Shown piece by piece: positions 36,341 through 55,614 of a stretch of DNA of 64,000 bases (within the stretch, counting starts at the first letter, position 1; the number at the start of each line of letters is the position of its first letter). The position numbers were made by a program, and so were the translations under genes. The notes beneath the pieces were generated by a model. That model saw only the letters and a list, made by a program, of their open reading frames with translations. It searched no databases and was not told where the DNA came from. The stretch is from Amycolatopsis viridis (lineage in GTDB: Bacteria > Actinomycetota > Actinomycetes > Mycobacteriales > Pseudonocardiaceae), in contig NZ_JAANOU010000001.1 of the NCBI RefSeq assembly GCF_011758765.1, forward strand, positions 3,348,001 through 3,412,000, read 5' to 3'.

Positions 36341-37699
36341 ATGGAGCTCAACGAGGCCCTGCGCCGCACGTTCGCCGGTCACTGGCGCCTGCTGGTGTGC
36401 GCCGTCGCCCTGCCGTTGCTGGTCGTCGCCGCGCTGCAGGCGCTGGCGACCCCGGCCTACGTCGCCACCAGCCGGATCCAGGCGTCGAGCACCCCGCCCA
36501 GCACGGACACCGAAGCCGATGCGGTGCTCAACCGCGTCGCCGGGATCGCGACGAGTCCCAGCGTGCTCAACGACGCCCTCCGGCAGGCGGGCATCACCAA
36601 CCGCAACGCCGACCAGCTGGCCGGCCACGAGGTCGCGGTGACACGGCTGGGCAGCTCGGCGGTGTTCAACGTCAGCGTCACCGACCCGAGCCCCCAGGTC
36701 GCGACCGGTCTCGCCGGCGCGCTGGCCAACCAGGTGGTCACGTTCCTGAACGGGACAGGAGATCCCCGCGCCGCCGGTCTGATCACCCAGCTGACCAACC
36801 AGCAGCGCGACCTGCTGGCGCAGCGCCAGCAAGTCGCGGCGCGGCTCGCGGCGGGCGGCGGCGCCCTGGACACCGCGAACCTGTCCGCGCAGCTGAGCAC
36901 CCTGGACCAGCAGCTCAACGACATCGGGGCGACACTGCGCCAGCTGCAGTCGACCGAGCTCACGAACGGCGGTTCGGCCGCGGCCATTTCGCTGGCGGGC
37001 CCCGCCGTGCGGACGCCGTCCCGGCTCGCGACCGATCTCGGTCTCGCCGGGATCGCCGGTCTCGTCGCGGGGCTGCTGCTCGCCACGGTGCTCGAGCTGG
37101 TGCGTCCCCGGGTGTCCGGCGGCCGGGACGTCGCCCGTGAGCTGGGCACGGTGCACCTGGGCCGGCTCACGCGCCCGCGGGACGGGGACGGCGCGCCCAC
37201 CGTCGACGACGCGACCCTGCTGGGTCTGCGCGAAACGCTGGCGCGCACCGGGACCGACCGGGTGGTCGTGGCCGGCCCGCTGCCCGCGCCGCGGTTGTCC
37301 GCGATCGCCGCCGGGCTCTCGGGCCGCCTGTCGACCGATCGCCCCAACGGGGACCAGCCGGCAGCGGCAAACGGCGTGCCCGGGGCACCCGGGGTTGCCC
37401 CGCGGCCGGAGGCCCTGGCCGGGCCCGGCCGCACCGCCACGTACCAGCCGGTCCTCGAGCTGCGGCGCAACCACCAGGCGATCGAGGTTCGCGCACTGCC
37501 CGAGATCGGCACCGCGCCGGACACCGGGCGCAGCGGTCTGCTGTTCGTCACGCCCGACTTCATGCTCCACCGCGAAGTGCACGGGCTGCACACGCTGACC
37601 GCCGCCACCGGCTGGCCGGTGCTCGGCGTCCTGGGCACCCGGGCTCTCCGGCGGCGCGAACGCAGCCGCCGGGGCAGCCGGCAGGGAGCGCGCCCGTGA
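36341..37699 (+). CDS. Wzz-like polysaccharide chain-length/co-polymerase protein
   Basis: 452-residue membrane protein with a Wzz topology. TM1 is at about residues 16-36, followed by a long extracytoplasmic coiled region (about 40-220, including LTNQQRDLLAQRQQVAARLAAG and LSTLDQQLNDIGATLRQL). TM2 is at about 226-246. The cytoplasmic C-terminal part (about 250-452) resembles the BY-kinase position but has no Walker A motif, so it is not a kinase. The family controls chain length and export of Wzy-made polysaccharides. It is the first gene of the operon. Confidence 0.8.
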   Translation: MELNEALRRTFAGHWRLLVCAVALPLLVVAALQALATPAYVATSRIQASSTPPSTDTEADAVLNRVAGIATSPSVLNDALRQAGITNRNADQLAGHEVAVTRLGSSAVFNVSVTDPSPQVATGLAGALANQVVTFLNGTGDPRAAGLITQLTNQQRDLLAQRQQVAARLAAGGGALDTANLSAQLSTLDQQLNDIGATLRQLQSTELTNGGSAAAISLAGPAVRTPSRLATDLGLAGIAGLVAGLLLATVLELVRPRVSGGRDVARELGTVHLGRLTRPRDGDGAPTVDDATLLGLRETLARTGTDRVVVAGPLPAPRLSAIAAGLSGRLSTDRPNGDQPAAANGVPGAPGVAPRPEALAGPGRTATYQPVLELRRNHQAIEVRALPEIGTAPDTGRSGLLFVTPDFMLHREVHGLHTLTAATGWPVLGVLGTRALRRRERSRRGSRQGARP

Positions 37700-38640
37700 C
37701 GGCCCTGTTCACTGAGCCACCCCGGGTCCGCCTGGACTGCGCGGCGACGGTCGACGGTCTGGCCAGCGTGCTCGAACACGCGGCCGCGGCGCTCGCCGAC
37801 GCCCGCCAGATCCGGCTGGCGCGCCCCGGCGAGCCCGCCGACGTGGTGCACACCGTGGGCGAGGCCGGGCCGGGACGCACCCCGGGCCCGGCACACCGGG
37901 TGCACACCGTCGACCGGGTGCTGCTCGACCGCCGGGGCCTGGCCGCCCCGACCGGATGGGTGCACCGGCAGCGGCGGTTCACCCGCGGCGCCGAGACCTG
38001 GCTGGTGCACGGCCGGACGGCCGCCCGGGTTCTGGTCGCGTCCGGGGTCGTCGATGGTGCCCGCCTGCACGAGCTGCCGGTCGTCGCGCCACCACCGGGG
38101 CGGACCACCGGCGACCGGGACCGGTCGAGTGTGCGCGCCCGGCTCGGGATCGCACCGGGTGTCGTGCTGGTGGTGGGGTGCGAACCCGGCCCCGGCCTGA
38201 GCGTGCCCGGGTGGGCCGACACGATCCGCGCGCTGCACCGAACCGACGTCCGGGTGATCCGCCACGGAACCGGCAGCGCCCTCCCGTTCGACGAACTCCT
38301 CGTCGCCGCCGACCTGTTCGTCGCCGCCGGTCTCGGGCTGACCGCGTGCAACCCGGGCGCCGCCGCCGTCGCCGCCGGGATCCCGCTCGTCGCGGCGACC
38401 AGCGACAGTGCGGCCGAGCTGGTGCGGTTCGGGCGCACCGGTCTGGTCGTGCCACCGCATGCGGCGGCGATCGCGGGCGCCGTCCAAGCCGTCCTGGACG
38501 GCGCGCTGCCCCGCCGGGACCGCCGCCCGCCGGCATCGGCTGCCGACGCCCAGCTGCCCGCGCTCGCCCACGGGCTGCTCGGCGCCTACCACCGGGCGCT
38601 CGGCACGCCACGGGCACCGGTCGCGTGGAGCGGGTCGTGA
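37696..38640 (+). CDS. Divergent glycosyltransferase (GT-B, GT4-like)
   Basis: 314-residue protein whose second half looks like the donor-binding domain of GT-B enzymes: VVLVVGCEPGPGLSVPGW, then FDELLVAADLFVAAGLGLTACNPGAAAVAAGIPLVAATSDSAAELVRFGRTGLVV. The acidic Glu of the usual E-x7-E motif is not evident. The N-terminal acceptor half is short. The start is coupled to the preceding gene (GTGA). The sugar it transfers cannot be inferred. It may be catalytically weak, or a partner of another transferase. Confidence 0.65.
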   Translation: MTALFTEPPRVRLDCAATVDGLASVLEHAAAALADARQIRLARPGEPADVVHTVGEAGPGRTPGPAHRVHTVDRVLLDRRGLAAPTGWVHRQRRFTRGAETWLVHGRTAARVLVASGVVDGARLHELPVVAPPPGRTTGDRDRSSVRARLGIAPGVVLVVGCEPGPGLSVPGWADTIRALHRTDVRVIRHGTGSALPFDELLVAADLFVAAGLGLTACNPGAAAVAAGIPLVAATSDSAAELVRFGRTGLVVPPHAAAIAGAVQAVLDGALPRRDRRPPASAADAQLPALAHGLLGAYHRALGTPRAPVAWSGS

Positions 38641-39821
38641 CCGCCGGGGTGGGCACGCGCACCGTGCCGTACGCGCGGTGCCACATCGTGCCGGAAGCGC
38701 ACGAGGCCGTCGCGCGGGTGCTGGCGAGCGGGTGGCTGACCACGGGACCGCAGACCCTGGCGTTCGAGGACGAGTTCGCCGGCTGGCTGGGCGCGCCCGA
38801 AGCCGTCGCGGTCAGCTCCTGCACCGCAGCGATAGAACTGGCGTTGCGGGCACTGCGGCTGCCGCCGGGAGCGCCGGTGCTCACCCCGGCCCTCACCTTC
38901 TGCGGTGCGGTGCACGCCATCGTCCACAGTGGACTTCGCCCGGTGCTCCTGGACGCGGACGAGCAGACGCTGACGGTGGATGCCGCCACGGTCGCCGCGG
39001 TGGCCGACCGGGTCCGGCCCGCGGCCATGGTCGTCCAGCACATGGCCGGCTACCCGGTGCCGGTCCCGGCTCTGGCCGAGGCGGCCGGCCTGCCCGCCGG
39101 CCGGGTCGTCGAGGACGCGGCACACGGGCTGGGCGCCGCGGCGGGCGGCCGGCTGGTCGGGGCGGCGTCCACCGCGGCCTGCTTCAGCTTCTACGCCACC
39201 AAGAACCTCCCGATCGGGGAGGGCGGCGCGATCACCACGACCGACCCGGACCTGGCCGGAACGCTGCGCGAAACACGCCAGCACGGGATGAGCCGCGACG
39301 CCTGGCGGCGCTACGGGCCCGGCGCGCAGTGGCGCTACGACGTCCGGACCGACGGGCTGAAGGCCAACTTCACCGACCTGCAGGCCGCGATCGGACGTGC
39401 CCAGCTGCCGCACCTCGCGAGCTGGCAGCGGCGGCGCGCGGAGCTGGCCGCCCGGTACGACCAGGAGTTGTCGGCCGTACCCGGGATCACCCCGCCGCCC
39501 CGCCCGTCCGAAGGCCGCCACGCCTGGCACCTCTACCCGATCCGGATCACCGCGCCGTACCCGCTGCACCGGGACGCGCTGGCGGAGGCGTTGCGCGGAC
39601 GGGGCGTCGGCACGTCGGTGCATTTCATCCCGGTGCACCACCTCACGTACTTCCGCACGCTGCTGGGGGCGGAGGCCTGCGGGCGCCTGCCGGTGGCCGA
39701 CCGGGTGTTCCCGCAGCTCCTGTCGCTCCCGCTGCATCCCGGCATCAGCGAGGACGACGTCGACTACGTCTGCGACCAGATCACGAGCCTCGCCCGCACC
39801 GGAGGTGACCCATGCCCCTGA
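38637..39821 (+). CDS. DegT/DnrJ/EryC1-family sugar aminotransferase
   Basis: 394-residue PLP-dependent aminotransferase. The N-terminal GWLTTGPQTLAFEDEFAGWL and the SSCTAAIELAL phosphate-cup region, Asp160 for the pyridine nitrogen, and the PLP Lys189 in FSFYATKNLPIGEGG are in place. The C-terminal FIPVHHLTYF region is typical. It would aminate a 4-keto sugar nucleotide, fitting the adjacent dehydratase. The GTG at 38637 overlaps the previous stop; another GTG at 38625 is less likely. Confidence 0.85.
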   Translation: MTAGVGTRTVPYARCHIVPEAHEAVARVLASGWLTTGPQTLAFEDEFAGWLGAPEAVAVSSCTAAIELALRALRLPPGAPVLTPALTFCGAVHAIVHSGLRPVLLDADEQTLTVDAATVAAVADRVRPAAMVVQHMAGYPVPVPALAEAAGLPAGRVVEDAAHGLGAAAGGRLVGAASTAACFSFYATKNLPIGEGGAITTTDPDLAGTLRETRQHGMSRDAWRRYGPGAQWRYDVRTDGLKANFTDLQAAIGRAQLPHLASWQRRRAELAARYDQELSAVPGITPPPRPSEGRHAWHLYPIRITAPYPLHRDALAEALRGRGVGTSVHFIPVHHLTYFRTLLGAEACGRLPVADRVFPQLLSLPLHPGISEDDVDYVCDQITSLARTGGDPCP

Positions 39822-41308
39822 CCCACTGGCGTTCCCGCCATCGCACCAGCCCCGGGATGGCGGCACGCACGCTGATCGTGGGGGCCGGCGACGCCGGCCG
39901 CACGCTGGCCCACGACCTGCAGCAGACCCCGTCCTACGGCCTGATACCGATCGGTTTCCTCGACGACGACGTCCGCAAGCGGCACGTGGCGCGGCTGCCG
40001 GTGCTCGGCCGCCTGGCGCAGCTGACCGACCTGGTGCGCGCGGAGGCCGTCGACGTCGTCATCGTCGCGATCCCGTCGCTGCCGCCGGTGGAGCTGGCCG
40101 CCCTGCTGCGCGAGGCGAGCCTGTCCGGGGCGCGGGTCCGCTACCTGCCGACGTTCCACGCCGCGGTGCAGCGCGGCAGCCGGGCCGCCGATCTCTACGA
40201 GGTCTCCCCCGCCACCCTGCTCGGACGCGACGAGATCAACGTGGTCCGGACGGTCACGCCGACGCTGATCCGCGGCCGGCGGGTGCTGGTGACCGGGGCG
40301 GGCGGCTCGATCGGCAGCGAGCTGTGCCGGCAGGTGCGGGCCTACCGGCCCGAGGCGCTGTTCATGCTGGACCACGACGAGTCCAACCTGCACCGGCTCC
40401 AGCTCGAGATCACCGGCGAGGCCCTGCTCGACGCCGACGAGCTGATCGTCGCCGACATCCGGGACCGCGCCCGGGTGGACCAGCTCTTCGCGACCCTGCG
40501 CCCGGAGATCGTCTTCCACGCCGCCGCGCACAAGCACCTGCCGCTGCTGGAGCGGCATCCCTGCGAGGGTGTGAAGACCAACGTGCAGGGCACGCAGCAC
40601 CTGATCGACGCGGCGGCCGCCCACGGCGCCCACCGGTTCGTCCTCATCTCCACCGACAAGGCCGCGGCGCCCACGTCGGTGCTCGGCGCGACGAAACGCC
40701 TCGCCGAGCTGGTCGTGCGCGGGCACGCGGGGAACAGCACCGTGGCGGGGTCCGTGCGGTTCGGCAACGTGCTCGGCAGCCGGGGATCGTTCCTCGACGT
40801 GCTGGCCCACCAGATCGCGGCGCACGAACCGGTGACCATCACCGACCCCGACGCGGACCGGTTCTTCATGACCGTCGAAGAGGCGGTCGGGCTGGTCCTG
40901 GAGGCGGCCGGGATGGCCGAGACGGGCGAGACCTTCGTGCTCGACATGGGCGATCCGGTGCGGCTGCGGTCCCTGGTGGAAACCTACGCCGCCCAGGTCG
41001 GCGAGCACGACGTGGAGATCCGGTTCACCGGGCTGCGGCCCGGGGAGAAGCTGAGCGAGGTCCTGTTCAGCGCCTCGGAACAGCGCATCCCGACCGGGCA
41101 TCCGCGGGTCTTCGCCACCCGCGGCGAGCCGGCGCCGCCGGACCTGGACGCCGGTCTGGGCGAGCTCTACGAGGCCGCCGAGCGCAACGACAACGACGCG
41201 GTCGGAGACTGGCTCGCCAAGCTCGTCCCCGGCTACCGGCCGGCCGCGCGGGGCCGGCCGCCGTCCGCCCGGGCCCTGTTCGGCACGTTGTACCCGGACG
41301 ACTTCTGA
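39812..41308 (+). CDS. NDP-sugar 4,6-dehydratase, WbpM/PglF/CapD family (no membrane domain)
   Basis: 498-residue protein. The N-terminal CoA-binding-like Rossmann domain (TLIVGAGDAGRTLAHDL at about 20-36) is followed by the catalytic extended-SDR domain from about residue 150. That domain has TGAGGSIGSELC, AAAHKHLPLLERHPCEGVKTNV and STDKAAAPTSVLGATKR. WbpM relatives start with four membrane helices; these are absent, so the protein should be soluble. It likely makes a 4-keto-6-deoxy sugar nucleotide, the substrate of the neighbouring aminotransferase. The ATG has GGAGGTGA ahead and overlaps the previous gene by ten bases. Confidence 0.85.
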   Translation: MPLTHWRSRHRTSPGMAARTLIVGAGDAGRTLAHDLQQTPSYGLIPIGFLDDDVRKRHVARLPVLGRLAQLTDLVRAEAVDVVIVAIPSLPPVELAALLREASLSGARVRYLPTFHAAVQRGSRAADLYEVSPATLLGRDEINVVRTVTPTLIRGRRVLVTGAGGSIGSELCRQVRAYRPEALFMLDHDESNLHRLQLEITGEALLDADELIVADIRDRARVDQLFATLRPEIVFHAAAHKHLPLLERHPCEGVKTNVQGTQHLIDAAAAHGAHRFVLISTDKAAAPTSVLGATKRLAELVVRGHAGNSTVAGSVRFGNVLGSRGSFLDVLAHQIAAHEPVTITDPDADRFFMTVEEAVGLVLEAAGMAETGETFVLDMGDPVRLRSLVETYAAQVGEHDVEIRFTGLRPGEKLSEVLFSASEQRIPTGHPRVFATRGEPAPPDLDAGLGELYEAAERNDNDAVGDWLAKLVPGYRPAARGRPPSARALFGTLYPDDF

Positions 41309-42297
41309 TGCGGGCCATGGTGATCCAGGCCGGGGAACGCCTGCTCGCCGACTGCCCACGGGGCTGGGTGGCCGACCTGCTCACCGAGGCGTGCCCCGGG
41401 GCGTGGCAACCGGCGGACGGGCAGCCAGCCGACATCGAGCTGTCCGTGGTCACCGGTCGCAAACCCTTCCGCGTGACCGGCGCCGTGCCGTTGACCAGGG
41501 GCGCCTACCGCGGGGCCGGCGCGGTGGTGCTGACCAACGCCTGCGGGAGCGGCTTCGATCTGCGGGTGACGGCCGGTGCGGACCGGCTTCGGGTGGAAGC
41601 CCGGTGGCGGCCGCCGCACCGGGAACGGCTGGCGGCGCGGGTGCTGCGCTCCCGGTTCCACCTGCTCGCGCGCGCCGCACTGGTGCAGTACCCGGCGCTG
41701 TGGTGGGCGGGCCGCCGCGGCCGGGTCCCGGTGCACGCCGCCGCGGTCACCGCGGCCGGCACGGTCCCGCTGCTGGCCGGGCCGGGCGGGATGGGCCGGT
41801 CGACACTCCTGCTCGACGCGGTGGCGGGCGGCGAGCGCGCCTGCTCGGACAACCTGTGCGTCAGCGACGGCAACCAGGTCTACGGGGTGGTCGAACCCGT
41901 CCGGGTCGAGGGCGGTGGGGGCCGCCGCATGGCCTACGGCCGCCGGGAACGCGGCCTGCCGGGCCGGATCGGCGTGCTGCGCCCCGACCGGCTGGTCGTG
42001 CTCAGCCGCACCGGAACCGGGCAGCCCGCGGTGCGGCCGCTGTCCGCGACGGCGGCGGCCGAAGCACTGACCGCGGGCACCTACATGGCCGGTGAGCTGC
42101 GGCGGTACTGGGCGTTCGCCGCCACGCTGGCGCTGGGTACCGGGCTGGGGCCCGCGCACCCGCCGGTCCGCGAGGTCGCCGTCGCCATGGCCGACCGGCT
42201 GCCCGCGTGCGAGATCGTGCTCGGTGCACGGCCGGGGGCGGGACTCGCCGAGTTGCTGGCACCCTCGGCCGGCCGGCCGAGGGCGGTGACGTCATGA
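41308..42297 (+). CDS. HprK-like P-loop protein of exopolysaccharide cluster
   Basis: 329-residue protein with an HPr-kinase/phosphorylase-like core. It has PVHAAAVTAAGTVPLLAGPG followed by the P-loop GPGGMGRST (residues 158-166), where Arg replaces the usual Lys. HprK-like proteins without HPr partners recur in exopolysaccharide clusters of other bacteria, with unknown targets. The N-terminal 130 residues show no recognisable domain. Start and preceding stop share one base (TGATG). Its Lys-to-Arg P-loop makes kinase activity uncertain. Confidence 0.7.
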   Translation: MRAMVIQAGERLLADCPRGWVADLLTEACPGAWQPADGQPADIELSVVTGRKPFRVTGAVPLTRGAYRGAGAVVLTNACGSGFDLRVTAGADRLRVEARWRPPHRERLAARVLRSRFHLLARAALVQYPALWWAGRRGRVPVHAAAVTAAGTVPLLAGPGGMGRSTLLLDAVAGGERACSDNLCVSDGNQVYGVVEPVRVEGGGGRRMAYGRRERGLPGRIGVLRPDRLVVLSRTGTGQPAVRPLSATAAAEALTAGTYMAGELRRYWAFAATLALGTGLGPAHPPVREVAVAMADRLPACEIVLGARPGAGLAELLAPSAGRPRAVTS

Positions 42298-43448
42298 GCG
42301 GGCCGCGGGTGGCCACGGTGATCACCCGGTTGCAGGCCGGCGCGGGCATCGTGGCGCTGCGCGGAGCCGAAGCGCTGGCCGCCCGCGGCTACCAGGTGAC
42401 GATCATCGCCGGCAGCGGCGACCGGCTGCTCGACCAGGCGGGTGTCGAAGTGGTGCGGGAGCCGGCGTTGCGCGCCCCGATCGCGCCCCGGGACGACCTG
42501 GTGGCCCTGCACCGGCTGACCGGCCTGTTCACCCGGCGCCCGTTCGACGTCGTCCACACGCACAGCGCGAAGGCCGGTGCGATCGGCCGCATCGCCGCGC
42601 ACCGCGCCGGGGTGCCCCGGATCGTGCACACCTACCACGGCTTCCCGTTCCACGAGTTCCAGCCGCTGCTGCGGCGGCAGGCCTACGTCCGGATCGAGCG
42701 CCGGCTCGGGCGCATCACCGACATCGCGTTGTGCGTCGGCACCGGGGTGTCGGTCGAGGCGATCCGGCGTGGCCTGCTCCCCCCGGAACGGATCCGCACG
42801 ATCGCGGTGCCCGTGGGCGCCGAGGTGCTCCCGCCCTCGCCCCAGGCACGGCCGCGGGCCCGGCGCGCGCTGCGGCTGCCCGACTCGGCGCTGGTCGTGG
42901 GGGCTGTCGGGCGGCTGTCCTACCAGAAGGCCCCGGAACACTTCATTGCCGCGATGACGGCGCTGCACCGGCCGGACGTGGTCGGCGTGTGGGTCGGCGA
43001 CGGTGAGCTGGCGGCGCGTGTCCAGGCGCTCGCGCGCGCGGCCCACCCGGACACGCGCATCGTGCTGGCCGGGGAACGGGCCGACGTGCCGGCACTGCTT
43101 CCCGCGTTCGACGTGTTCGCCCTGCCCAGCCGGTACGAGGGCCTGCCCGTGGCGATCGTCGAGGCGATGGCCGCGGGTGTGCCGGTGGTTGCGACCGCAG
43201 TCAACGCCGTGCCCGATGTGGTGCGGCCCGGCGAGACCGGGCTGCTCGTCCCGCCGCAGCGCCCCGACCTGCTCGCCACCGCCATCGCGTACCTGCTGGA
43301 CCGGCCGGGCGAAGCGGCGCGCCTGGCGCACGCCGCACGGGCCCAGGTCGGTGCCCGGTACGGCGCCGGTGCACTGGCCGACGCGCTGGAAGCCGCCTAC
43401 CAGCTCACACCCACCACTGCCGATCACGAGGAGTCCCCGTGCGCGTAG
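42294..43448 (+). CDS. GT4-family glycosyltransferase
   Basis: 384-residue GT-B glycosyltransferase with a full GT4 pattern. The N-terminal RVATVITRLQAGAGIVALRGAEAL is followed by DVVHTHSAKAGAIGRIAA and then HTYHGFPFHEFQ. The donor-side motif PSRYEGLPVAIVEAMAAG with its E-x7-E is intact, and GETGLLVPP follows. It should transfer one sugar to the lipid-linked repeat unit on the cytoplasmic face. Coupled to the previous gene by ATGA and to the next by a ten-base overlap. Confidence 0.87.
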   Translation: MSGPRVATVITRLQAGAGIVALRGAEALAARGYQVTIIAGSGDRLLDQAGVEVVREPALRAPIAPRDDLVALHRLTGLFTRRPFDVVHTHSAKAGAIGRIAAHRAGVPRIVHTYHGFPFHEFQPLLRRQAYVRIERRLGRITDIALCVGTGVSVEAIRRGLLPPERIRTIAVPVGAEVLPPSPQARPRARRALRLPDSALVVGAVGRLSYQKAPEHFIAAMTALHRPDVVGVWVGDGELAARVQALARAAHPDTRIVLAGERADVPALLPAFDVFALPSRYEGLPVAIVEAMAAGVPVVATAVNAVPDVVRPGETGLLVPPQRPDLLATAIAYLLDRPGEAARLAHAARAQVGARYGAGALADALEAAYQLTPTTADHEESPCA

Positions 43449-44878
43449 ACGTGTTCACCCACCCCACCGGCGACCCCGTGGCGGACCTGACGGTGTTCGA
43501 CAACGCCGACGCGCCGGCCGATCCGGTGCTGCTGGACCGCGTGCGCGCGGGCACGGCGGCTGCGGACCTCGCCGCGCCGCCGGTGGTGCTGCCGGACTTC
43601 TGCCACAAGGAAAAGTCCGAGATGCCTTCCAGCATCGCCGTCGCGACGCGCGACGCCATCCGCCCGACGCTGACCGACGCGGCGCTCAACTGCGGCATGG
43701 CTCTGGCCACTTTGGACATCGAACCACCGTCCGTGCCCGCGATCGACGACTTCTACCGGCGGGTCCGCGAGCGGTATCCGAACCCGCCCGGCTGGCGGTT
43801 CGAACTCACCCGGGACGAGGTGCTGCGTGCCGCGGTCGAGGGGGCCGGCTTCGCCGCGCAACGGTACGACCTGGACGGCCACGACATCGACCGGGTCGAG
43901 GAGTTCGGCCACCTGCCGGTGGCGGAATACGGCGGCGCCGCCCGCGCGCGCCGCGAGCTGCCGTGGATCTGCGTCCAGCTGGCGCGGCTGCGCTTCGGCT
44001 CCATCGGCCCGAGCACGCACTTCCTGGAACTGCAGCAGGTCGAGGAGGTGTTCGAGCCGGAGATCGCGGAGCACCTCGGGGTGCACGTGGGTCAGGTGAC
44101 GATGCAGTTCCACAACGGCGGCGGGGTGCTCACCGGCCAGATCGGGGAGATGTACGCCCGCCGCAAGTCCGCGTCCCGCCTGCTGCGCACCGAGATGGCG
44201 CTGCAGAAGCCACTGACCCACCTGGCCGGCGCGGGCAGCCTGGCCCGGGCGCGGCAGCGCTACGCCACGTACTTCTCGGTGGGCTGCCCGTCCATTCCCA
44301 TCGAGGGCGACGAGGGCCGGCGGGTGATGCTGGCGCAACGCCTGTCGATGAACTACGGGTTCGCCTACCGCCTGGCGACCTACGCCACGCTCCGCCGCTT
44401 CGCCCGGGAGGCGTTCGGCGCGTCCCTGCGGCTGGTGGTCGACTCGCCGCACAATTCGGTCTACGAGGAGACGGTCGACGGCCGGCCCGCGTTCGTGCAC
44501 CGCCACAACGCGGCGCGGGCGTGGCCGTCCGAGCTGATGGCCGGGCATCCCGCCTTCGCGGAGACCGGGCAGCCGTTGCTCGTGCCCGGCACCAACCGCA
44601 CCTCGTCCTTCCTGTGCGTGCCCGCGCCGCAGGCGCACCGCAGCCTCTACACCGCCTGCCACGGCACCGGCAGCATCATCAGCTCGTTCGTCCGCGATGG
44701 ACGGTCCGGCCCCGACCCGCGGGGACGCCACACCTTGCGCTACGGCTACACCGACGCCGCGCCGCGGGAGGTCCCGCAGCTGGACGACCACGGGGTGGAC
44801 GCGGCGGTCGGCATCCTCATCGGCAACGGCCTGGTCCGCCCGGTGGCCCGGCTCCGGCCCTTCGCGGTGCTGACATGA
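43439..44878 (+). CDS. Divergent RtcB-family protein in exopolysaccharide operon
   Basis: 479-residue protein recognisable as RtcB family by its ordered motifs. They are PDFCHKEKSEMPSSIAVA (residues 52-69), LNCGMAL (83-89), STHFLELQ (192-199), MQFHNGG (222-228), DSPHNSVYEE (335-344), HRHNAARAWP (354-363), LVPGTNRTSSF (381-391) and CHGTGS (407-412). Compared from memory with archaeal RtcB, the metal ligands Cys85, His194, His225 and His338 and the guanylylation His408 are kept. However, Ala82 stands where Asp is essential, and the last residue is Thr where the active-site Lys is expected. RtcB joins RNA 2',3'-cyclic phosphate ends with GTP. The operon setting suggests another, maybe carbohydrate-related, role. 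The GTG start has GAGGAG upstream. Confidence 0.78.
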   Translation: MRVDVFTHPTGDPVADLTVFDNADAPADPVLLDRVRAGTAAADLAAPPVVLPDFCHKEKSEMPSSIAVATRDAIRPTLTDAALNCGMALATLDIEPPSVPAIDDFYRRVRERYPNPPGWRFELTRDEVLRAAVEGAGFAAQRYDLDGHDIDRVEEFGHLPVAEYGGAARARRELPWICVQLARLRFGSIGPSTHFLELQQVEEVFEPEIAEHLGVHVGQVTMQFHNGGGVLTGQIGEMYARRKSASRLLRTEMALQKPLTHLAGAGSLARARQRYATYFSVGCPSIPIEGDEGRRVMLAQRLSMNYGFAYRLATYATLRRFAREAFGASLRLVVDSPHNSVYEETVDGRPAFVHRHNAARAWPSELMAGHPAFAETGQPLLVPGTNRTSSFLCVPAPQAHRSLYTACHGTGSIISSFVRDGRSGPDPRGRHTLRYGYTDAAPREVPQLDDHGVDAAVGILIGNGLVRPVARLRPFAVLT

Positions 44879-46128
44879 CCAGCTCACCCGCGGTGCGCGC
44901 GGCACCGGCGCACTGGCAGGCGGTGCTGCCGCCGGGCCGGCGGTTCGTGGCGCTGCCGTCGCGCCGGCAGCCCGTGGTGGTCGCCGAGGAGGACCCGTCG
45001 GTGCTGCGGTACGTGCGGACCTCCCTGCTCGCCGCGCCTCCGGGCAGTTCGCTGCCCGGCTGGGTGTTCGGCGCGGCCCGCCAGGCCCTGCGCCTGCCGG
45101 TGTCGTGGCGGCTGGCACCACACCTGCGGGCCCCGTCCGGTGCCGCCGGACGGTTCGACCGGCTCGCCGCCGGGCACCGGCTGCTGGTCCTGCGGCACAG
45201 CCACGACCCGGACGCGCGGATCCTGCTGCTGCTGTTCGCGCCGGGCTGCCGGTGGCCGCGCCACGCGGCGAAGGTGTCGTCCGACCCCGCGGGCGCCGCG
45301 CGGGTCCTGCGCGAGGCGGACCGGCTGCGCGCCATCGGTGCGCTGTCCCTCGGCCCGGTGCGGGCGACGGTGCCCGAGGTCGTCGCGGTCCTGTCCGACC
45401 ACGGCTCGCCCGCCCTTGTGACCACCGCGGTGCCCGGTACGCCGATGCTGGTCGGCTACCACCGCCGCGGGCACACCAGCCGGCCCGCGACCGTCCGCGC
45501 GGACTTCGCGGCGGCCGGGGCGTGGCTGGCCGCGTTCCAGTCCGGCACCGCGGACGGGGTGGCGCCACTGGACCTCGCCCCCGGTGTACCGGAGAGGCTG
45601 CGGCACCGGCTCGGCGCGCGTCCCGACGGCGGGAAGCGCGTGCAGGACCAGCTGGCCGCACTGCGCGCGCGGCTGCGGCGGCACCAGGGCCCGCGGACCG
45701 CGGTGCACGGCGACTTCTGGCCCGGCAACGTCCTCCTCGACCGGGGCACCGTGACCGGCGTGGTGGACTGGGAGTGGGCCGAGCCCGCGGGCAGCCCGGT
45801 GCGCGATGTGGCTCGCTTCGTCCTGACCTACTCGCAGTACCTCGCCAAGCACACCCCGCCCGGCCGCCAGGTGCACGGGCATCCCGGGCTGCTCGCCGGC
45901 CGTCCGGAGGCGGCGCTGGTCTACGCCCTCGACGGCGAGGGCTGGTATCCGCGGCTGGTACGGGATTTCCTGCACACCGGGCTCCGCCGGCTCGGGATGG
46001 CGCCGGCCTGCGCCCGGGACGCCGTCCTCGCCGAGCTCGCCGCGGTGGCAGCCGAAGCAACCGACCGCGCGTTCGGGGAGGAGCAGGTGCGCGTGTTCGA
46101 ACGGCTCGGCGGGCAGGTGCCGTCATGA
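44875..46128 (+). CDS. Aminoglycoside-phosphotransferase-fold kinase
   Basis: 417-residue protein with an APH-type kinase domain in its C-terminal half. The catalytic loop is HGDFWPGN (His278, Asp280, Asn285) and the metal-binding Asp298 lies in VVDWEWAE. The N-terminal 140 residues contain a weak kinase N-lobe, with Lys133 in HAAKVSSDP a candidate ATP-binding Lys. Similar APH-fold proteins occur in exopolysaccharide and PEP-CTERM-type clusters, where they may phosphorylate sugars or lipids. Coupled on both sides by ATGA overlaps, directly after the RtcB-like gene. Confidence 0.77.
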   Translation: MTSSPAVRAAPAHWQAVLPPGRRFVALPSRRQPVVVAEEDPSVLRYVRTSLLAAPPGSSLPGWVFGAARQALRLPVSWRLAPHLRAPSGAAGRFDRLAAGHRLLVLRHSHDPDARILLLLFAPGCRWPRHAAKVSSDPAGAARVLREADRLRAIGALSLGPVRATVPEVVAVLSDHGSPALVTTAVPGTPMLVGYHRRGHTSRPATVRADFAAAGAWLAAFQSGTADGVAPLDLAPGVPERLRHRLGARPDGGKRVQDQLAALRARLRRHQGPRTAVHGDFWPGNVLLDRGTVTGVVDWEWAEPAGSPVRDVARFVLTYSQYLAKHTPPGRQVHGHPGLLAGRPEAALVYALDGEGWYPRLVRDFLHTGLRRLGMAPACARDAVLAELAAVAAEATDRAFGEEQVRVFERLGGQVPS

Positions 46129-47426
46129 CGGTGCGGACCAGGCCGCTGCCCGCGCTCGCCGAGCTCCCCCGGCCGGCGCGGGGGACGGCCGAGCGCGCCG
46201 CCGTGCTGGCCGCCGCCGGGGCGATGGTGTTCCAGCCGATCCTGCGGCCGGCCGGCCCGGGTAACAGCTCCCCGGTGGACCTGTTCACCGCGGCCACGGT
46301 CGTGTTCGTCGGCCTGTGGGCGGCGACCAGCGGGCGCAAGCTCGGCGCGCCGTACCTGCTGTCCTTCGGTCTGCTGATCGTGGCCGGCGGGATCGCCGGG
46401 GTGGCCGGCCCGCTGCCGCGCACGTCCCTGCTGGAGGTCTTCCAGGACCTCGTGCTGCTCGCCTGGGCGGTGGCGCTGTACAACATCGCGCGCCGCCCCG
46501 GTGTGCTCGGCGTGCTGACCGCCACGTTCGCGTACTCCTCGATCGTCTGGGCGACGGTGCTGGTGGTCGCGTCCCTCGCGCACATCACGCCGCTGGAGGG
46601 CATTTCCGCGACCGAGGGGAACCGGCTGCTGTTCACCCTGGGCGATCCGAACTACGCGTCGGCGTACTGGGTGGTGTCGCTGCTGGTGGTGTTCGCGGCG
46701 AAACGCCCGCGGCACTGGGCGGTCCGCTGGTTCGGCTACGCGATGCTGGTCTGGGCGATCGTGCTGAGCGAGTCCAACGGGGGCGTGCTCGAGCTGTGCA
46801 TCGGCCTCGGCTTCCTCGCCCTGGTCGCCTGTTACCGGCGGCGCGGACTCGTGGGCGCGCTGGCCCTGGCGGTGTCGCTGGCCGCCCTCGTCGGCCTGGG
46901 CCTGCGGCTCGTCCCGTTCTCGCAGGTGCAGACCTGGGCACTCCAATCGGGACAGTCCTACCTGGTCAACTCGCTCGGGCGCAGCAACGGCAGCAGTTCG
47001 CAGCGAGCCCTGCTGATCCAGGAGTCGATGGGGCTGTACCACTCCGACGGGGTGCTCGGCAGCGGGCCGCGCACCACGAAACAGCTGCTGATCGACCGGA
47101 GTTACCCCTACGCGAAGGAGGCGCACGACGACTACCTCGCCGCGCTGACCGAGCGGGGCGTGGCCGGGGCGGCCGGGATGGTGCTGCTCGTGCTCGTGGC
47201 GGCCTGGCGAGCGAGCCGCGCGCTGCGCGCCCCGCCGGGTGCGGGGTTCGCGGCGGAGGTGGCCCGGCCGGCCGGGCTCGTCGCCGCCCTACTGGCCATG
47301 GCCGTGGCCGGGACCTACTACCAGGTCCTTCATTTCCGCTTCGTGTGGATCCTGCTGGTGTTCGTGGCGGTGCTCGCCTCCCGGCCCGACGCCGATCAGC
47401 CCGCGCCGGGGCGGGGATCCCGATGA
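46125..47426 (+). CDS. O-antigen ligase/polymerase-like (Wzy/WaaL) membrane protein
   Basis: 433-residue protein with about eleven hydrophobic segments and one large extracytoplasmic loop (about residues 265-345) containing GSGPRTTKQLLIDRSYPYAKEAHDDYLAALTERG. The H-D/N-x-x-x-x-L-x-E-x-G pattern in that loop is typical of the Wzy_C/WaaL family. As it lies beside a flippase it is more likely the polymerase of a Wzx/Wzy pathway than a ligase. Coupled by ATGA overlaps on both sides. Confidence 0.82.
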   Translation: MTVRTRPLPALAELPRPARGTAERAAVLAAAGAMVFQPILRPAGPGNSSPVDLFTAATVVFVGLWAATSGRKLGAPYLLSFGLLIVAGGIAGVAGPLPRTSLLEVFQDLVLLAWAVALYNIARRPGVLGVLTATFAYSSIVWATVLVVASLAHITPLEGISATEGNRLLFTLGDPNYASAYWVVSLLVVFAAKRPRHWAVRWFGYAMLVWAIVLSESNGGVLELCIGLGFLALVACYRRRGLVGALALAVSLAALVGLGLRLVPFSQVQTWALQSGQSYLVNSLGRSNGSSSQRALLIQESMGLYHSDGVLGSGPRTTKQLLIDRSYPYAKEAHDDYLAALTERGVAGAAGMVLLVLVAAWRASRALRAPPGAGFAAEVARPAGLVAALLAMAVAGTYYQVLHFRFVWILLVFVAVLASRPDADQPAPGRGSR

Positions 47427-48745
47427 GGATCGACGTGCCGGGCGTGGCGCGGCGCTGGTGGGGCACGGGCGCGGGCGGTCCCTTCGGCCGCCGCGGCGCA
47501 CTGCTCAACCTCACCGCGCAGGGCACCGCGTTGCTGATCGTCGCCGTGGCCAGCGTGCTGGTGGCGCGGATCGGCGGGCCGACCGTGCTGGGCGAGTACA
47601 CGCTGCTGCGGGTCCTGCCCTGGCTGTTCGCGGTCGTGTTCAGCTGCGGGTTGCCCGTCGCTTCGACGTTCTTCATGGCCGGCGGGTACCGCGACGATGC
47701 GCGGCTGAGGCCCACGCTCACCGTCCTCGCGGTCCTCGGCGCGAGCATCGCGACGGGGCTGTGGCTGGTGGCGGCACCGCTGTTGCACCGGGAGCTGTTC
47801 ACCGCCGCGCCGCTGCGACTGGTCGCGCTGATGGCCGCCACGGTGGTCACGCAGCTACTCACCGTCTGGGGCAAGGCCTGCTGCCAGGGCGCCGCCGACA
47901 TGCGCGGGGCCAACCTGGTGATCGTGTGCGAGGAGCTGCTGTTCCTGCCGGCCTACGGCATCGCCGGCCTGGCCGGGCTGCGTGGTCTCGACGCCGTGGT
48001 GGCCGGCATGATCGCAGGCGGTGCGGCGGCCGCGGGGACGGCGCTGGGACGGCTGGCCGCCACCGGCTTCTTCCGCCACTGGAAACGGCCGCACCTGCCG
48101 CTCGGCTTCGCCATAATGCGCTACGGCGCCCGCGGTCAGCTGGGCAACCTGCTGATGCTGGTCAACCTCCGGCTGGACTTCGTGATCCTCGGCGTGCTCG
48201 CCGGTCCGGCGGTGGTCGGGGTGTACGCGGTCGCCTCGAAGTTCGCCGAGCTCATGCGCCTGCCCGCGACCGCGCTGAACTACGTGCTCTACCCGCGGTT
48301 CGCCAGGCAGAAACCGGCCGCGGCGGACGCGGACGTGCAGCGGCTGCTGCCCCGGGCGGTGGCCGGCACCGCGGCCATGACGCCGCTGCTGGCGGTCGCG
48401 TCGGTGATCACACTGCCCGTGCTGTACGGGCCGGCGTTCCGTTCGGCGGTGCTGCCGGCGTGCATCCTGCTGGCCGGGCTCGCCGTCGAGGGAGCCGCCG
48501 CCGTGTCGTCGGCCTACCTGTGCGGCCGGGGCCGGCCGGGCGCGAACTCGTGGGGCATGGGCGCCGGCGCGCTGGTCACCGTGGCGCTCGACGTCGTGCT
48601 CATCCCGCGCGCGGGCGCGGTGGGCGCGGCCATCGCGTCCACTGTGGCCTATCTCGTGACCACCGGGCTGCTCACCACGATCGCGCAGGGTCTCGCCCGG
48701 CGCTCGGTCGCCGCGGTGGTGGCGGACGGTGGTGAACCGGCATGA
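47423..48745 (+). CDS. Wzx-like polysaccharide flippase
   Basis: 440-residue MOP-superfamily membrane protein with about 12-14 hydrophobic segments. The polysaccharide-flippase opening LNLTAQGTALLIVAVASVLVARIGGPTVLGEYTL and the mid-protein RYGARGQLGNLLMLVNLRLDFVILG are characteristic. It should move the lipid-linked repeat unit to the outer face for the Wzy-type protein encoded just before it. Coupled by ATGA overlaps on both sides. Confidence 0.84.
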   Translation: MRIDVPGVARRWWGTGAGGPFGRRGALLNLTAQGTALLIVAVASVLVARIGGPTVLGEYTLLRVLPWLFAVVFSCGLPVASTFFMAGGYRDDARLRPTLTVLAVLGASIATGLWLVAAPLLHRELFTAAPLRLVALMAATVVTQLLTVWGKACCQGAADMRGANLVIVCEELLFLPAYGIAGLAGLRGLDAVVAGMIAGGAAAAGTALGRLAATGFFRHWKRPHLPLGFAIMRYGARGQLGNLLMLVNLRLDFVILGVLAGPAVVGVYAVASKFAELMRLPATALNYVLYPRFARQKPAAADADVQRLLPRAVAGTAAMTPLLAVASVITLPVLYGPAFRSAVLPACILLAGLAVEGAAAVSSAYLCGRGRPGANSWGMGAGALVTVALDVVLIPRAGAVGAAIASTVAYLVTTGLLTTIAQGLARRSVAAVVADGGEPA

Positions 48746-50019
48746 CCAGCCCGGCGTCGCTCGCCTCCGCCGTGGTCGCGGTGCTGGTACTCGTGGTCGG
48801 GCTCGCCGCCGCGGACAGCCCGTCCGTTGCCGGCAGCTCCACGCCGTGCGCCTCTTCGGTGGCGCCGCAGGCGTTCCGCGTCACCCTGTGCCTGACCGCG
48901 CCGGCCGAGGGCGCGACGCTGCCGGGCCCGGCCACGGTGCACGCGACGGTGGCCGTGTCCGGCACCGCCCCGGACGTCGAGGGCGTTACCTACAGCCTCG
49001 ACGGGGCCTACGTGTTGTCCGACGAGCAATCGCCGTACTCGTTCACCCTGCACACGTACCTGTACGCCCCCGGACGGCACGTCCTGTCCGCCAGCGTGTC
49101 CTTCAGCGGCGGCTACGCGACACCCCCGCTGTCGCTGCCGGTGATCTTCGCGCCGGCGCCGGCACCCCCGCCACCGCCGCCGTTCACGCCGTCGACCGGG
49201 ACGCCACCCGCTCCCGGGGCGCCGCTGGTGGTGGCCGCGGGCGGCGACGGCGCGTCCGGGCTGACCAGGGAGCAGCAGGTGGCCGGCCTGATCGCCTCGT
49301 GGCACCCCAACCTGTTCCTCTACCTCGGCGACGTCTACGAACAGGCGTCCAGTGAGGAAATGCTGAACTTCTACGGCGAGCAGGGCTCGTTCTTCTCCCG
49401 CTTCCGCGCGATCACGAACCCGACCGTCGGCAACCACGAGTACACCTTGAGCCCCACCGCGCAGCCCTATGTCGACTACTGGGGCGGGATCCCGCACTAC
49501 TACAGCTACGACATCGGCGCCTGGCACTTCGTCAGCCTCGACGACACCGCCCAGTACGGCCAGGGCGCGGTGACCTCACCGCAGTACCGCTGGCTCGCCG
49601 CCGACCTGACGCGGAACACCAAGCCCTGCACCCTGGTCTACTTCCACCGGCCGTTCTTCACCCTCGACGCCGACGCCCCGGCCACCGAGTACACCGCGTA
49701 CTGGCAGCTGTTCGCGGCCCACCACGTGACGCTCACGCTCAGCGGGCACGCACACAACTACCAGCGCTGGCAACCGCTCGACGGGGACGGCGCCGTCAGC
49801 GCCACCGGCGTGACGTCGATCGTGGCCGGTACCGCCGGGCAGTGGCTGAGCCCGTTCACGCGCACCGATCCCCGCGTGGCAGCGGGGTTCGACAACACCG
49901 GCACGAGCTCGGGGGCGTTGCAGCTGCGGTTGTCGAACGGCGGTGCCGCCTTCCTGTTCCAGAACGTGTCGGGCCAGGTCCTCGACCACGGCGAGGTCGC
50001 CTGCCGGGGCGGGACATGA
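48742..50019 (+). CDS. Secreted calcineurin-like metallophosphatase
   Basis: 425-residue protein: a signal peptide (hydrophobic run SAVVAVLVLVVGLAAA near the N terminus), an Ig-like domain (about 40-135), a Pro-rich linker (APAPAPPPPPP), then a metallophosphoesterase domain. Its metal motifs are GGDGA, YLGDVYE, VGNHEY, YFHRP and SGHAHNYQ. It resembles purple-acid-phosphatase-like or alkaline phosphodiesterase enzymes acting outside the cell. In a polysaccharide operon it may remove phosphate from the glycan or from undecaprenyl-linked intermediates, but this is inference. Confidence 0.82.
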   Translation: MTSPASLASAVVAVLVLVVGLAAADSPSVAGSSTPCASSVAPQAFRVTLCLTAPAEGATLPGPATVHATVAVSGTAPDVEGVTYSLDGAYVLSDEQSPYSFTLHTYLYAPGRHVLSASVSFSGGYATPPLSLPVIFAPAPAPPPPPPFTPSTGTPPAPGAPLVVAAGGDGASGLTREQQVAGLIASWHPNLFLYLGDVYEQASSEEMLNFYGEQGSFFSRFRAITNPTVGNHEYTLSPTAQPYVDYWGGIPHYYSYDIGAWHFVSLDDTAQYGQGAVTSPQYRWLAADLTRNTKPCTLVYFHRPFFTLDADAPATEYTAYWQLFAAHHVTLTLSGHAHNYQRWQPLDGDGAVSATGVTSIVAGTAGQWLSPFTRTDPRVAAGFDNTGTSSGALQLRLSNGGAAFLFQNVSGQVLDHGEVACRGGT

Positions 50020-50036
50020 ACCACGGAGGTGCCGCG

Positions 50037-51059
50037 ATGTCCGGTCCGCAACGGAGTTCCGGTCGTGTCGTGTTCGTCGGCGCGGTCCACGAAGCACTCC
50101 CGGCACTGTCCACATTGCTCGCACACCCCGCGGCGCGGGTCGTCGCGGTGCTGACGCCACCGGCAGAGCAGGCGAGGCAGCTCTCCGGTGCCGTCGACCT
50201 CGCCGCGGTGGGCGGGCTCGGTGGTGTGCGCCTGCTCCGCGCCGACGACATCAACGCGCCCGCCGTCGTGGGCACGGTGCGCCGCCTGGCGCCGGATCTG
50301 CTCGTGGTGGTGGGCTGGACCCGGTTGCTCGGCCCCGAACTGCTGTCGGTGCCCGCCCGCGGCTGTGTCGGGTTCCACGCGTCCCTGCTCCCGCGCCACC
50401 GGGGGCGGGCGCCGGTCAACTGGGCCATTCTGCGCGGCGAGACGCTCACCGGGAACACCATGCTGTTCCTCGATCCCGGCGCCGACACCGGCGACATCAT
50501 CGACCAGCGCCCGGTGCGCATCCGGGCCGACGACACGTGCGCCACCGTGTACGAACGGGTCGCCGCCGCGGGCGCGCAGATGCTCGCCGAACACCTTCCC
50601 GCGCTGCTGGCGGGCACCGCGCCGCGCCGGCCGCAGAGCCCGTCGGAGGGAGACCTGCTCCCCCGCCGCACCCCGGCGATGGGAATCCTCGACTGGAACC
50701 GGCCCGCGCGCGCCGTCCACGACTGGGTCCGCGCCCTCACCCGGCCCTACCCCGGCGCGTTCAGCGCGCTCCACGGGAACCGCACGATGATCTGGCGGAC
50801 CCGTCCACCGGGCGAGTCCGAACCGGACGGTCCCGCGGGCACGATCCTCGCGGTGGACCAGGCCGGGGTCCGGGTGGCGACCAGCCCGGGCAGTGTCGTG
50901 GTCACCAGCATGTCCGACCCGGACCAGCCGCCCCGGCATGCCGCCGACTGGTGCGCCGAACACGGGATCCGCCCCGGCGCCCGGTTCGCGGCCGTGCCAC
51001 CGGCGCTGGCGCGCTGGGCCCGCGGCGAAGGGCCGCGACCGGAGGTGCTGGCGCGATGA
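50037..51059 (+). CDS. Methionyl-tRNA-formyltransferase-like (sugar N-formyltransferase candidate)
   Basis: 340-residue protein with a formyltransferase domain: FHASLLPRHRGRAPVNWAI contains the catalytic His and the SLLP loop, and GADTGDIIDQ the catalytic Asp. The Asn usually two residues before the His is Gly here (CVGFH). The C-terminal OB-like domain is present. An N-formyl transfer to an amino sugar would suit the dehydratase and aminotransferase in the same operon. ATG at 50037 has GGAGGT six bases ahead; a coupled ATG at 50016 is in frame and possible. Confidence 0.77.
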   Translation: MSGPQRSSGRVVFVGAVHEALPALSTLLAHPAARVVAVLTPPAEQARQLSGAVDLAAVGGLGGVRLLRADDINAPAVVGTVRRLAPDLLVVVGWTRLLGPELLSVPARGCVGFHASLLPRHRGRAPVNWAILRGETLTGNTMLFLDPGADTGDIIDQRPVRIRADDTCATVYERVAAAGAQMLAEHLPALLAGTAPRRPQSPSEGDLLPRRTPAMGILDWNRPARAVHDWVRALTRPYPGAFSALHGNRTMIWRTRPPGESEPDGPAGTILAVDQAGVRVATSPGSVVVTSMSDPDQPPRHAADWCAEHGIRPGARFAAVPPALARWARGEGPRPEVLAR

Positions 51060-51721
51060 ACACGGTGCTCGTGGTGGCCGCCCATCCCGACGACGAGGTC
51101 CTCGGCGCCGGGGGCACCCTCGCCCGTCACGTCCATTGTGGAGACCGGGTGCACGCGCTGCTGGTCGCCGACGGCGCGACCAGCCGGTACACCGCCGGGA
51201 TGGCGGAAAGGCTCGCCAAGTGCACGCGCCGGGCGGCGCAGGTGCTCGGGTTCGCCTCGGTGCACCAGTTGTCGCTGCCGGACCAGCGGCTGGACACCCT
51301 GCCGCTGCTCGACGTCACCCGCGAGGTGGAGAAGGTGGTCGACCGGGTGCGGCCGGAGGTCGTCTACACCCATTTCCCCGGAGACGTGAACGCCGATCAC
51401 GGGGTGGTGGCCAGGGCGGCCTGGACGGCCTGCCGGCCGTACGTGCTGCCCGGGTTGCGCCTGTTCGCCGCGTTCGAGACCCCCTCGTCCACGGAATGGG
51501 CCTGGCCGCTCGCGGGCAGCACGTTCAGCCCCGCGCGCTTCGTCGACGTGTCCGCCACCCTGGACGGCAAGCTCGACGCGATGTCCTGCTACGACAGCGA
51601 ACTGCGCGACTACCCGCACCCGAGATCGCTGCGCGCGCTGCGGGAACGCGCCGCCTACTGGGGCAGCCGGGTGGGGCGGCCCGCGGCGGAAGCGTTCCAG
51701 GTGCTGCGGGAGGTGACGTGA
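51056..51721 (+). CDS. PIG-L-family GlcNAc deacetylase
   Basis: 221-residue LmbE/PIG-L enzyme with the zinc motif AHPDDEVLGAGGTL (residues 9-22) and the downstream His in NADHGVV. Family members de-N-acetylate GlcNAc-lipid or GlcNAc-inositol substrates. Coupled to the formyltransferase by an ATGA overlap, it could free the amino group that is then formylated. No signal peptide is visible, so it acts in the cytoplasm. Confidence 0.85.
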   Translation: MNTVLVVAAHPDDEVLGAGGTLARHVHCGDRVHALLVADGATSRYTAGMAERLAKCTRRAAQVLGFASVHQLSLPDQRLDTLPLLDVTREVEKVVDRVRPEVVYTHFPGDVNADHGVVARAAWTACRPYVLPGLRLFAAFETPSSTEWAWPLAGSTFSPARFVDVSATLDGKLDAMSCYDSELRDYPHPRSLRALRERAAYWGSRVGRPAAEAFQVLREVT

Positions 51722-52356
51722 CCGGCGAGATCACGACCGGCACCATCGTGCCCGACACCCGCCTGCGCCGGGCCGCCGACCTCGCCGTGGCCGTGACAGC
51801 CTTGGTCGTGCTGCTGCCGCTGCTCGTGGTCATCGCGCTCGCGATCAAGCTGACCAGCCGCGGTCCCGCGGTGTACCGGCAACGCCGCGTCGGCCGGGAC
51901 GGGCGCCCGTTCCTGATCTGGAAGTTCCGCACCATGGTGGCGAACGCCGAGCGCATCGGGCCGGCCGTGAGCGGCAGCGCGGACCCGCGGATCACCCGGG
52001 TCGGGCGGTGGCTGCGCGCGACCCGGCTGGACGAGCTCCCGCAGCTGGTGAACCTGCTGCGCGGGGACATGACCCTGATCGGGCCGCGGCCCGAGGTGGA
52101 GCGGTTCCTCCGCTACTACACCCCGGCCGAGCGCCGCCTCCTGACGGTCCGGCCGGGCATCATCGGTCCCGGCGCGCTGCTGTTCGCCGCCGCGCAGAGC
52201 CAGGAACTGACGCACGCGGCCGATCCGGAGGCGCACTACGTCGCCCACCACCTGCACCCGAAGCTGGCACTCGACCTGGCCTACCTCGCCCGGCGCGGGC
52301 CCCGGGCGGATCTGGCCCTGCTGGCGCGGACCGTCCGGATCGTGCTCAGCCGGTGA
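51718..52356 (+). CDS. Initiating phosphoglycosyl transferase (PglC/WbaP-type monotopic)
   Basis: 212-residue protein of the bacterial sugar transferase family. One hydrophobic segment (about 18-42, a re-entrant membrane helix) is followed by GRDGRPFLIWKFRTMVANAE, then the catalytic DE pair in TRLDELPQLVNLLRGDMTLIGPRPE, and RPGIIGPGALLF. It links the first sugar phosphate to undecaprenyl phosphate and so begins each repeat unit. It lacks the extra N-terminal membrane domain of WbaP. It is the last gene of the operon. The GTG start overlaps the previous stop (GTGA). Confidence 0.87.
   Translation: MTGEITTGTIVPDTRLRRAADLAVAVTALVVLLPLLVVIALAIKLTSRGPAVYRQRRVGRDGRPFLIWKFRTMVANAERIGPAVSGSADPRITRVGRWLRATRLDELPQLVNLLRGDMTLIGPRPEVERFLRYYTPAERRLLTVRPGIIGPGALLFAAAQSQELTHAADPEAHYVAHHLHPKLALDLAYLARRGPRADLALLARTVRIVLSR

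Positions 52357-52885: not shown

Positions 52886-55614
<2,729 letters not shown>

Follow-up and report, generated by a model that had tools for sequence, protein, structure and literature searches.

The RtcB-like protein encoded at 43439..44878 (plus strand) of the window, by which we mean the whole 64,000-nucleotide stretch of Amycolatopsis viridis DNA analyzed here, belongs to a subfamily with a substantially rebuilt catalytic site, conserved in sugar-polymer clusters of soil actinobacteria, suggesting that an RNA ligase has been turned into a carbohydrate enzyme. A preliminary description of the window had proposed that an RtcB scaffold was reused for a new reaction. Reuse outside RNA repair, within a polysaccharide operon, is now strongly supported: the proteins form one clade with one pattern of residue replacement, their genes sit in one cluster, the gene is under purifying selection, and a separate RtcB is present in 14 of the 19 host genomes tested. 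The type of reaction then envisaged, phosphate or nucleotidyl chemistry on a glycan or lipid carrier, would fit both the residues that are kept and lost and the kinase-type neighbors.

The RtcB-fold protein and its operon

The open reading frame (GTG start, 479 amino acids, GC3 0.95) matched a single Pfam family, PF01139 RtcB (E 2.2e-39, residues 49-477), with 136 bits against a cut-off of 27 and over the whole profile (positions 16-423 of 426). Comparison of a three-dimensional model with 4dwq revealed the full RtcB fold, the aligned range ending at model residue 479, which corresponds to residue 480 of 4dwq. Profile search and structural comparison both place the protein inside the RtcB superfamily, confirming the family named in the preliminary description. 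None of the NCBIfam RtcB models reached its cut-off (87, 66, and 45 bits against 1150, 407, and 272, respectively), and within the same genome the other RtcB scored 418 bits, as compared with 134 bits for the operon protein. The RtcB fold is already known; what appears to be new is the polysaccharide-cluster subfamily, together with its setting. A chance open reading frame or frame artifact was ruled out by the GC3 of 0.95, by orthologs at 97% and 89%, and by a dN/dS of about 0.2, the last of which also excluded a decaying gene. A phage or plasmid origin was rejected as well: the matches listed included 11 plasmid and six phage records, all below 30% identity, and a scan of viral contigs yielded one relative, at 25% identity.

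The RtcB-like gene is one of 14 co-directional genes that span 36341 to 52356, all on the plus strand, in accordance with the 14-gene operon described previously. The first (36341..37699) was named a Wzz-like chain-length protein by its position and look and had no Pfam match. It is followed by genes for a glycosyltransferase (37696..38640; PF13692, E 8e-8), a DegT/PseC-like sugar aminotransferase (38625..39821; PF01041, E 6e-99; TIGR03588 below cut-off), a nucleotide-sugar 4,6-dehydratase of the Polysacc_synt_2 type (39857..41308; PF02719, E 1e-93; PseB-like, below cut-off), a PEPCK/HprK-fold kinase-like protein without a Pfam match (41308..42297), whose P-loop, GPGGMGRST, has Arg for Lys, and a GT4 glycosyltransferase (42294..43448; PF00534, E 3.6e-35). 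The stop of the GT4 gene overlaps the start of the RtcB-like gene by 10 nt, and the RtcB-like stop overlaps, as ATGA, an ATG at 44875 that opens the gene for an APH-fold kinase (44875..46128; PF01636, E 1.1e-17; HGD..GN-type motif) in the same frame as, and upstream of, the start at 44923 chosen by the gene caller. These overlaps are consistent with the translational coupling to both neighbors that had been proposed. Downstream lie genes for a Wzy-type polymerase (46125..47426; PF04932, E 6e-10), a Wzx-type flippase (47423..48745; PF01943, E 6e-10), a metallophosphoesterase with an Ig-like domain (48742..50019; PF00149, E 2e-6, and PF17957, E 5e-10), a sugar formyltransferase (50070..51059; PF00551, E 8e-29), a PIG-L deacetylase (51056..51721; PF02585, E 1e-26), and a polyprenyl-phosphate sugar-1-phosphate transferase (51718..52356; PF02397, E 3e-54). 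A scan for promoters and terminators returned nothing exceeding chance. Elsewhere in the window, a FUR-family regulator adjoins a peroxidase gene (KatG-like, to judge from its length and pairing) directly 3' of the operon, at 52886-55614, and two separate CoA-transferase gene pairs occur within 7 kb, at 431-1983 and 5672-7305, with PF01144 found in all four proteins.

Kept and replaced residues of the active site

In the alignment with P. horikoshii RtcB, window residues C85, H194, H225, H338, and H408 correspond to C98, H203, H234, H329, and H404, while A82 aligns with D95 and the C-terminal T479 with K480. The preliminary description was therefore correct as to the Cys/His metal ligands, the guanylylation histidine, and the Ala and Thr in place of an essential Asp and a terminal Lys. 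Its statement that all ordered RtcB motifs are retained holds for the metal ligands and the nucleophile and fails for R238, K351, R408, R412, and Y451 (P. horikoshii numbering, used hereafter unless the window is named), which are also lost. Across a clade alignment of 46 rows (partial rows L103, L104, L106, and L107 excluded), D65, C98, H203, F204, E206, H234, H329, S385, and H404 are kept in every row, so that the four metal ligands and the nucleophile are invariant; in window numbering, the partner of H408 is D53, and the two of three base contacts that are kept are F195 and E197.

Seven residues are replaced in all 46 rows, and realignment produced no canonical catalytic set. These are the metal-B carboxylate D95 (S in 27, A in 19), R238 (G throughout), K351 (H in 44, Y in two), R408 (T in 24, S in 22), R412 (mixed residues), Y451 (V, A, T, I, or S), and the C-terminal guanine contact K480 (H in 15, N in 14, T in 11, S in six); an earlier 50-row set that included partial rows had T at D95 in one row and a gap in another. 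R238, R408, and R412 are conserved arginines that we take to have a role with RNA. In addition, the C-terminal Gly of RtcB is replaced or missing in every clade row, N202 is N in 30 rows and T in 16, and N330 is N in 43 and D in three. The kept and replaced positions are invariant in 36 other RtcB rows (D65 being readable in 35, with one X), which are other RtcB search matches rather than tested ligases and include L109, a Spirochaete sequence at 27%; the basic residues R238, K351, R408, and R412, present in 36/36 of these rows, occur in 0/46 clade rows. Conversely, K57, E61, S65, R75, R185, R242, H356, N357, R387, and D449 are newly invariant, or nearly so, in the clade. The clade has thus not undergone simple decay: one part of the site is held fixed, and the other has been replaced, largely by new conserved residues.

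The roles of these residues in known RtcB enzymes are described in passages of two studies; in a third (PMC10630183), the residue names had no match. According to those of the first, F204, E206, and K480 touch the guanine base, D95 and H203 are Mn ligands, N202 contacts the triphosphate, and formation of the His-GMP bond falls to H404 and D65, and a single substitution at any of them inactivates the enzyme; in the P. horikoshii protein (PhRtcB), D95A and K480A are each inactivating alone, K480A can be rescued by Archease, and D95A retains Archease-rescued guanylylation of the RNA 3'-phosphate while ligation is lost (PMC3973293). In those of the second, the alpha and beta phosphates are contacted by metal A and the gamma phosphate by metal B, the residues that hold the released phosphate include D119, N354, and K375 (equivalent to D95, N330, and K351), and human RTCB requires all five metal ligands for ligation, its D119A variant showing weak guanylylation and no ligation (PMC10944509). 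Judged by these roles, the clade appears to keep the part of the site that serves the nucleoside, the alpha and beta phosphates, and the covalent histidine, and to have lost most of the terminal-phosphate part, K480, and the conserved arginines. This split, as we interpret it, speaks against RNA ligation; the options that would most naturally remain are nucleotidyl transfer involving a different partner and phosphate chemistry at a single metal. As human RTCB needs all five ligands and D119A is weak, the loss of D95 and K351 could even mean that the clade carries out no nucleotidylation at all.

Linkage, distribution, and selection

Scanning a species-genome collection with a six-row alignment yielded 48 loci, 47 of which match the window protein at 51-88% (best segment), with L109 (27%) serving as the outgroup. 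By record title, 39 of the 47 are actinobacterial (Streptomyces, Kribbella, Nocardioides, Terrabacter, Dactylosporangium, Nonomuraea, Pseudonocardia, Amycolatopsis, and others), and eight are metagenome bins whose labels, taken as given, are Chloroflexi, Dormibacterota, Gemmatimonadetes, or Acidobacteria. The distribution of the gene is sparse and uneven, with occurrences in 3/19 genomes of the window's genus, 4/396 phylum-level genomes, and 3/394 class-level genomes (each count includes the window genome). A maximum-likelihood tree of the 46 clade rows and 36 other RtcB rows placed the clade on one side of a branch of length 3.82 with support of 100/100; the tree is unrooted, and the tree program issued a warning that long branches come together within the comparison set.

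Purifying selection acts on the RtcB-like gene, with dN/dS (NG86) values of 0.19, 0.19, and 0.23 relative to L056, L057, and L064. Against the same three relatives, seven operon neighbors gave values of 0.16-0.58; four of the seven fell below the RtcB-like gene in the comparison with L056, the closest of the three, and none did so with L057 or L064. Measured as identity multiplied by coverage to the window, the RtcB-like protein had a median of 53, with the dehydratase, DegT, and GT4 proteins at 52-57, the HprK-like, Wzx, and Bac_transf proteins at 40-44, and the Wzy, APH, and Wzz proteins at 29-35.

The composition of the cluster was surveyed in 34 loci of at least 19 kb, leaving out L062 (on the same contig as L057), the outgroup L109, and L152 (20 kb). 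A gene was scored as present if blastp matched it at 1e-10 at any position of the locus, a rule under which a paralog could count for GT4, the dehydratase, and DegT. By this measure, GT4, HprK-like, and Wzx matches were found in 34/34 loci each, those to the dehydratase, Wzy, and Wzz in 33/34 each, and those to APH, DegT, and Bac_transf in 32/34, 30/34, and 19/34, respectively. The constant linkage of the first six makes the RtcB-like gene a member of a Wzx/Wzy cluster, and extends across genomes the placement in a polysaccharide operon given in the preliminary description. APH had no match within 21 kb at L076 and L102, Wzy and Wzz had none at L058, and DegT had none at L063, L066, and L067. 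GT4 and HprK were not matched on the 20-kb contig of L152, whose genome has an HprK-like gene at the end of another contig. Cluster genes were absent from L103 (a 4.8-kb contig) and L156 (2.7 kb), the sole such clade loci among those examined, which probably represent the same contig. The surroundings of the other RtcB gene and two further stretches of the window served as controls, and none of the cluster families was found there. In Kribbella/Terrabacter-type clusters (L080:15220-15657, L099:19081-19515, and their kin), a small gene precedes APH; its product resembles, by eye, the N-terminal part of the window APH protein, and that of L080 had no Pfam match.

The HGD..GN-type motif is present in 36/37 APH family members. 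The HprK-like protein is a candidate for a new kinase family of actinobacterial polysaccharide clusters. Arg replaces the P-loop Lys in 9/34 of its members, including the window lineage, and the kinase may for this reason be inactive in the lineages concerned. Used as a marker in the 394 class-level genomes, it matched strongly in the window genome and two others and weakly in five more; in the 396 phylum-level genomes, at E 1e-20, it matched in the window genome and G249 only, both of which have the RtcB-like gene. Among genomes with an HprK-like match, G679 carries the RtcB-like gene on another contig, and G634 has no RtcB-like gene, but its contig starts at the Wzz gene; in some relatives (L080 and L081), the RtcB-like gene lies just upstream of Wzz. 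Six genomes in these samples carry the RtcB-like gene (the window genome, G249, G259, G271, G679, and G713), of which three have an HprK-like gene. G259 and G271 (one genus) and G713, which are 82, 62, and 82% complete, gave no HprK-like match, profile search included, suggesting that this partner may not be obligatory. This small sample held no clean case of an HprK-like gene without an RtcB-like gene; the reverse may exist.

Possible reactions and alternative explanations

A glycan operon that encodes kinase-type proteins along with a single RtcB-type protein suggests a phosphate relay. The HprK/PEPCK-fold and APH-fold kinases could make a phosphate monoester on a sugar or lipid-linked sugar. 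The RtcB-like enzyme would still bind the alpha/beta-phosphate end of a nucleotide, H408 (window numbering) would carry a covalent nucleotidyl (or phosphoryl) intermediate with the help of one metal, and the second substrate would be a sugar phosphate or nucleotide sugar instead of an RNA 3'-phosphate. The outcome might be either (i) capping of the sugar phosphate with a nucleotide to give nucleotide-P-P-sugar, as RtcB does on the RNA 3'-phosphate, or (ii) joining of the sugar phosphate to a hydroxyl to give a phosphodiester. The change at the K480 position may alter the choice of base, since in the passages cited above, the amount of product that PhRtcB K480A formed from ATP with Archease present was about twofold higher (PMC3973293). 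We regard it as a serious possibility, falling just short of probable, that the protein is an active enzyme of nucleotidyl or phosphoryl chemistry dedicated to Wzx/Wzy polysaccharide synthesis. More tentatively, an RtcB-type ligase may have become a carbohydrate-active enzyme, forming nucleotidyl or phosphodiester bonds, that works with the two kinases in activating or joining phosphorylated glycan units of the Wzx/Wzy polymer.

In the literature passages seen, RtcB enzymes act on nucleic acids. If the carbohydrate reading is true, the RtcB fold is also used outside nucleic-acid chemistry, and the annotation "RNA ligase," given by family match, misleads for these genes. A coherent subfamily in which the covalent-histidine half of the active site is retained and the remainder remodeled, within a glycan operon, would show a route from RNA ligase to sugar enzyme; it may also signal that actinobacteria make a phosphate-containing polysaccharide that has yet to be described. 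None of the titles or abstract openings among the literature matches listed placed an RtcB in a polysaccharide operon, in a search whose coverage leaves out most subscription papers; nor is RtcB named in the portions available of a study of Actinoplanes polysaccharide clusters (PMC13390465).

Four other explanations were weighed. One, which we consider unlikely, is a metal-dependent hydrolase or phosphodiesterase, whose single metal-A site (C/H/H and window H194) would act on a glycan or lipid intermediate, cleaving a phosphodiester or cyclic phosphate there without a covalent nucleotidyl step. RtcB itself opens 2',3'-cyclic phosphate. The metal ligands are invariant in 46/46 rows and the residues tied to the terminal phosphate of GTP are gone, both of which speak for this reading; yet window residues H408, D53, F195, and E197, which have His-GMP or base roles in RtcB, are equally invariant, and a plain hydrolase would not need them. 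It seems similarly unlikely that the protein is a pseudoenzyme, i.e., a metal-stabilized scaffold for keeping together the glycosyltransferases, kinases, or Wzx/Wzy machinery, or else a nucleotide sensor. The loss of seven active-site residues in every aligned member is consistent with this idea; however, the nucleophile and metal ligands of a pseudoenzyme would be expected to drift, and they are invariant in a clade where 32/45 relatives share at most 60% identity with the window protein, while new polar residues (K57, R185, H356/N357, and R387) have become invariant or nearly so.

We judge as improbable a mechanism like that of galactose-1-phosphate uridylyltransferase, in which H408 would attack the alpha phosphate of a nucleotide sugar, free the sugar-1-phosphate, and hand the nucleotide on to a different sugar phosphate. 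Nucleotide sugars are products of the operon, and the ligands of metal A, which contacts only the alpha and beta phosphates, are kept while the gamma-phosphate site is lost; the two kept base contacts, however, are guanine contacts in RtcB, not uracil contacts. The likeness to this transferase would be one of mechanism only (a covalent His-nucleotide and a sugar phosphate), as its fold is not known to be related to that of RtcB. If the RtcB-like protein activates sugars, the sugar nucleotidylyltransferases found in polysaccharide operons would be its functional counterparts; they have another fold and are not known to form a covalent histidine intermediate.

The RtcB-like protein shares with the RtcB 3'-phosphate RNA ligase (PF01139; P. 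horikoshii PH1602, human RTCB) the whole fold, the metal-A ligands, H203, the guanylylated His, D65, F204, and E206; it differs in lacking D95, R238, K351, R408, R412, Y451, and K480, in its polysaccharide operon, and in the absence of an Archease match from 16 of 19 chosen host genomes (the window genome, three G genomes, and 15 from the species-genome scan). That it is an RNA repair ligase hitch-hiking in the operon is most improbable, in spite of the full RtcB fold and of five host genomes (G205, G609, G610, G611, and G617) without another RtcB above 350 bits, because D95, K480, and the five other residues are gone in 46/46 rows, D95A and K480A each inactivate PhRtcB, Archease, which can rescue K480A, was matched in only 3/19 host genomes, and a separate RtcB above 350 bits is present in the other 14. 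We are thus nearly certain that the protein is not an RNA ligase. RtcB paralogs beside the release factor PrfH (PMC6514570, PMC9223846) likewise represent a second RtcB in a specialized operon; in the passages seen (PMC6514570), those paralogs are assigned to RNA repair next to a release factor, whereas Pfam scans of the 14 operon genes found no release factor here. In G606, G608, and G612, a further RtcB adjoins an Archease gene, in addition to the polysaccharide RtcB-like gene.
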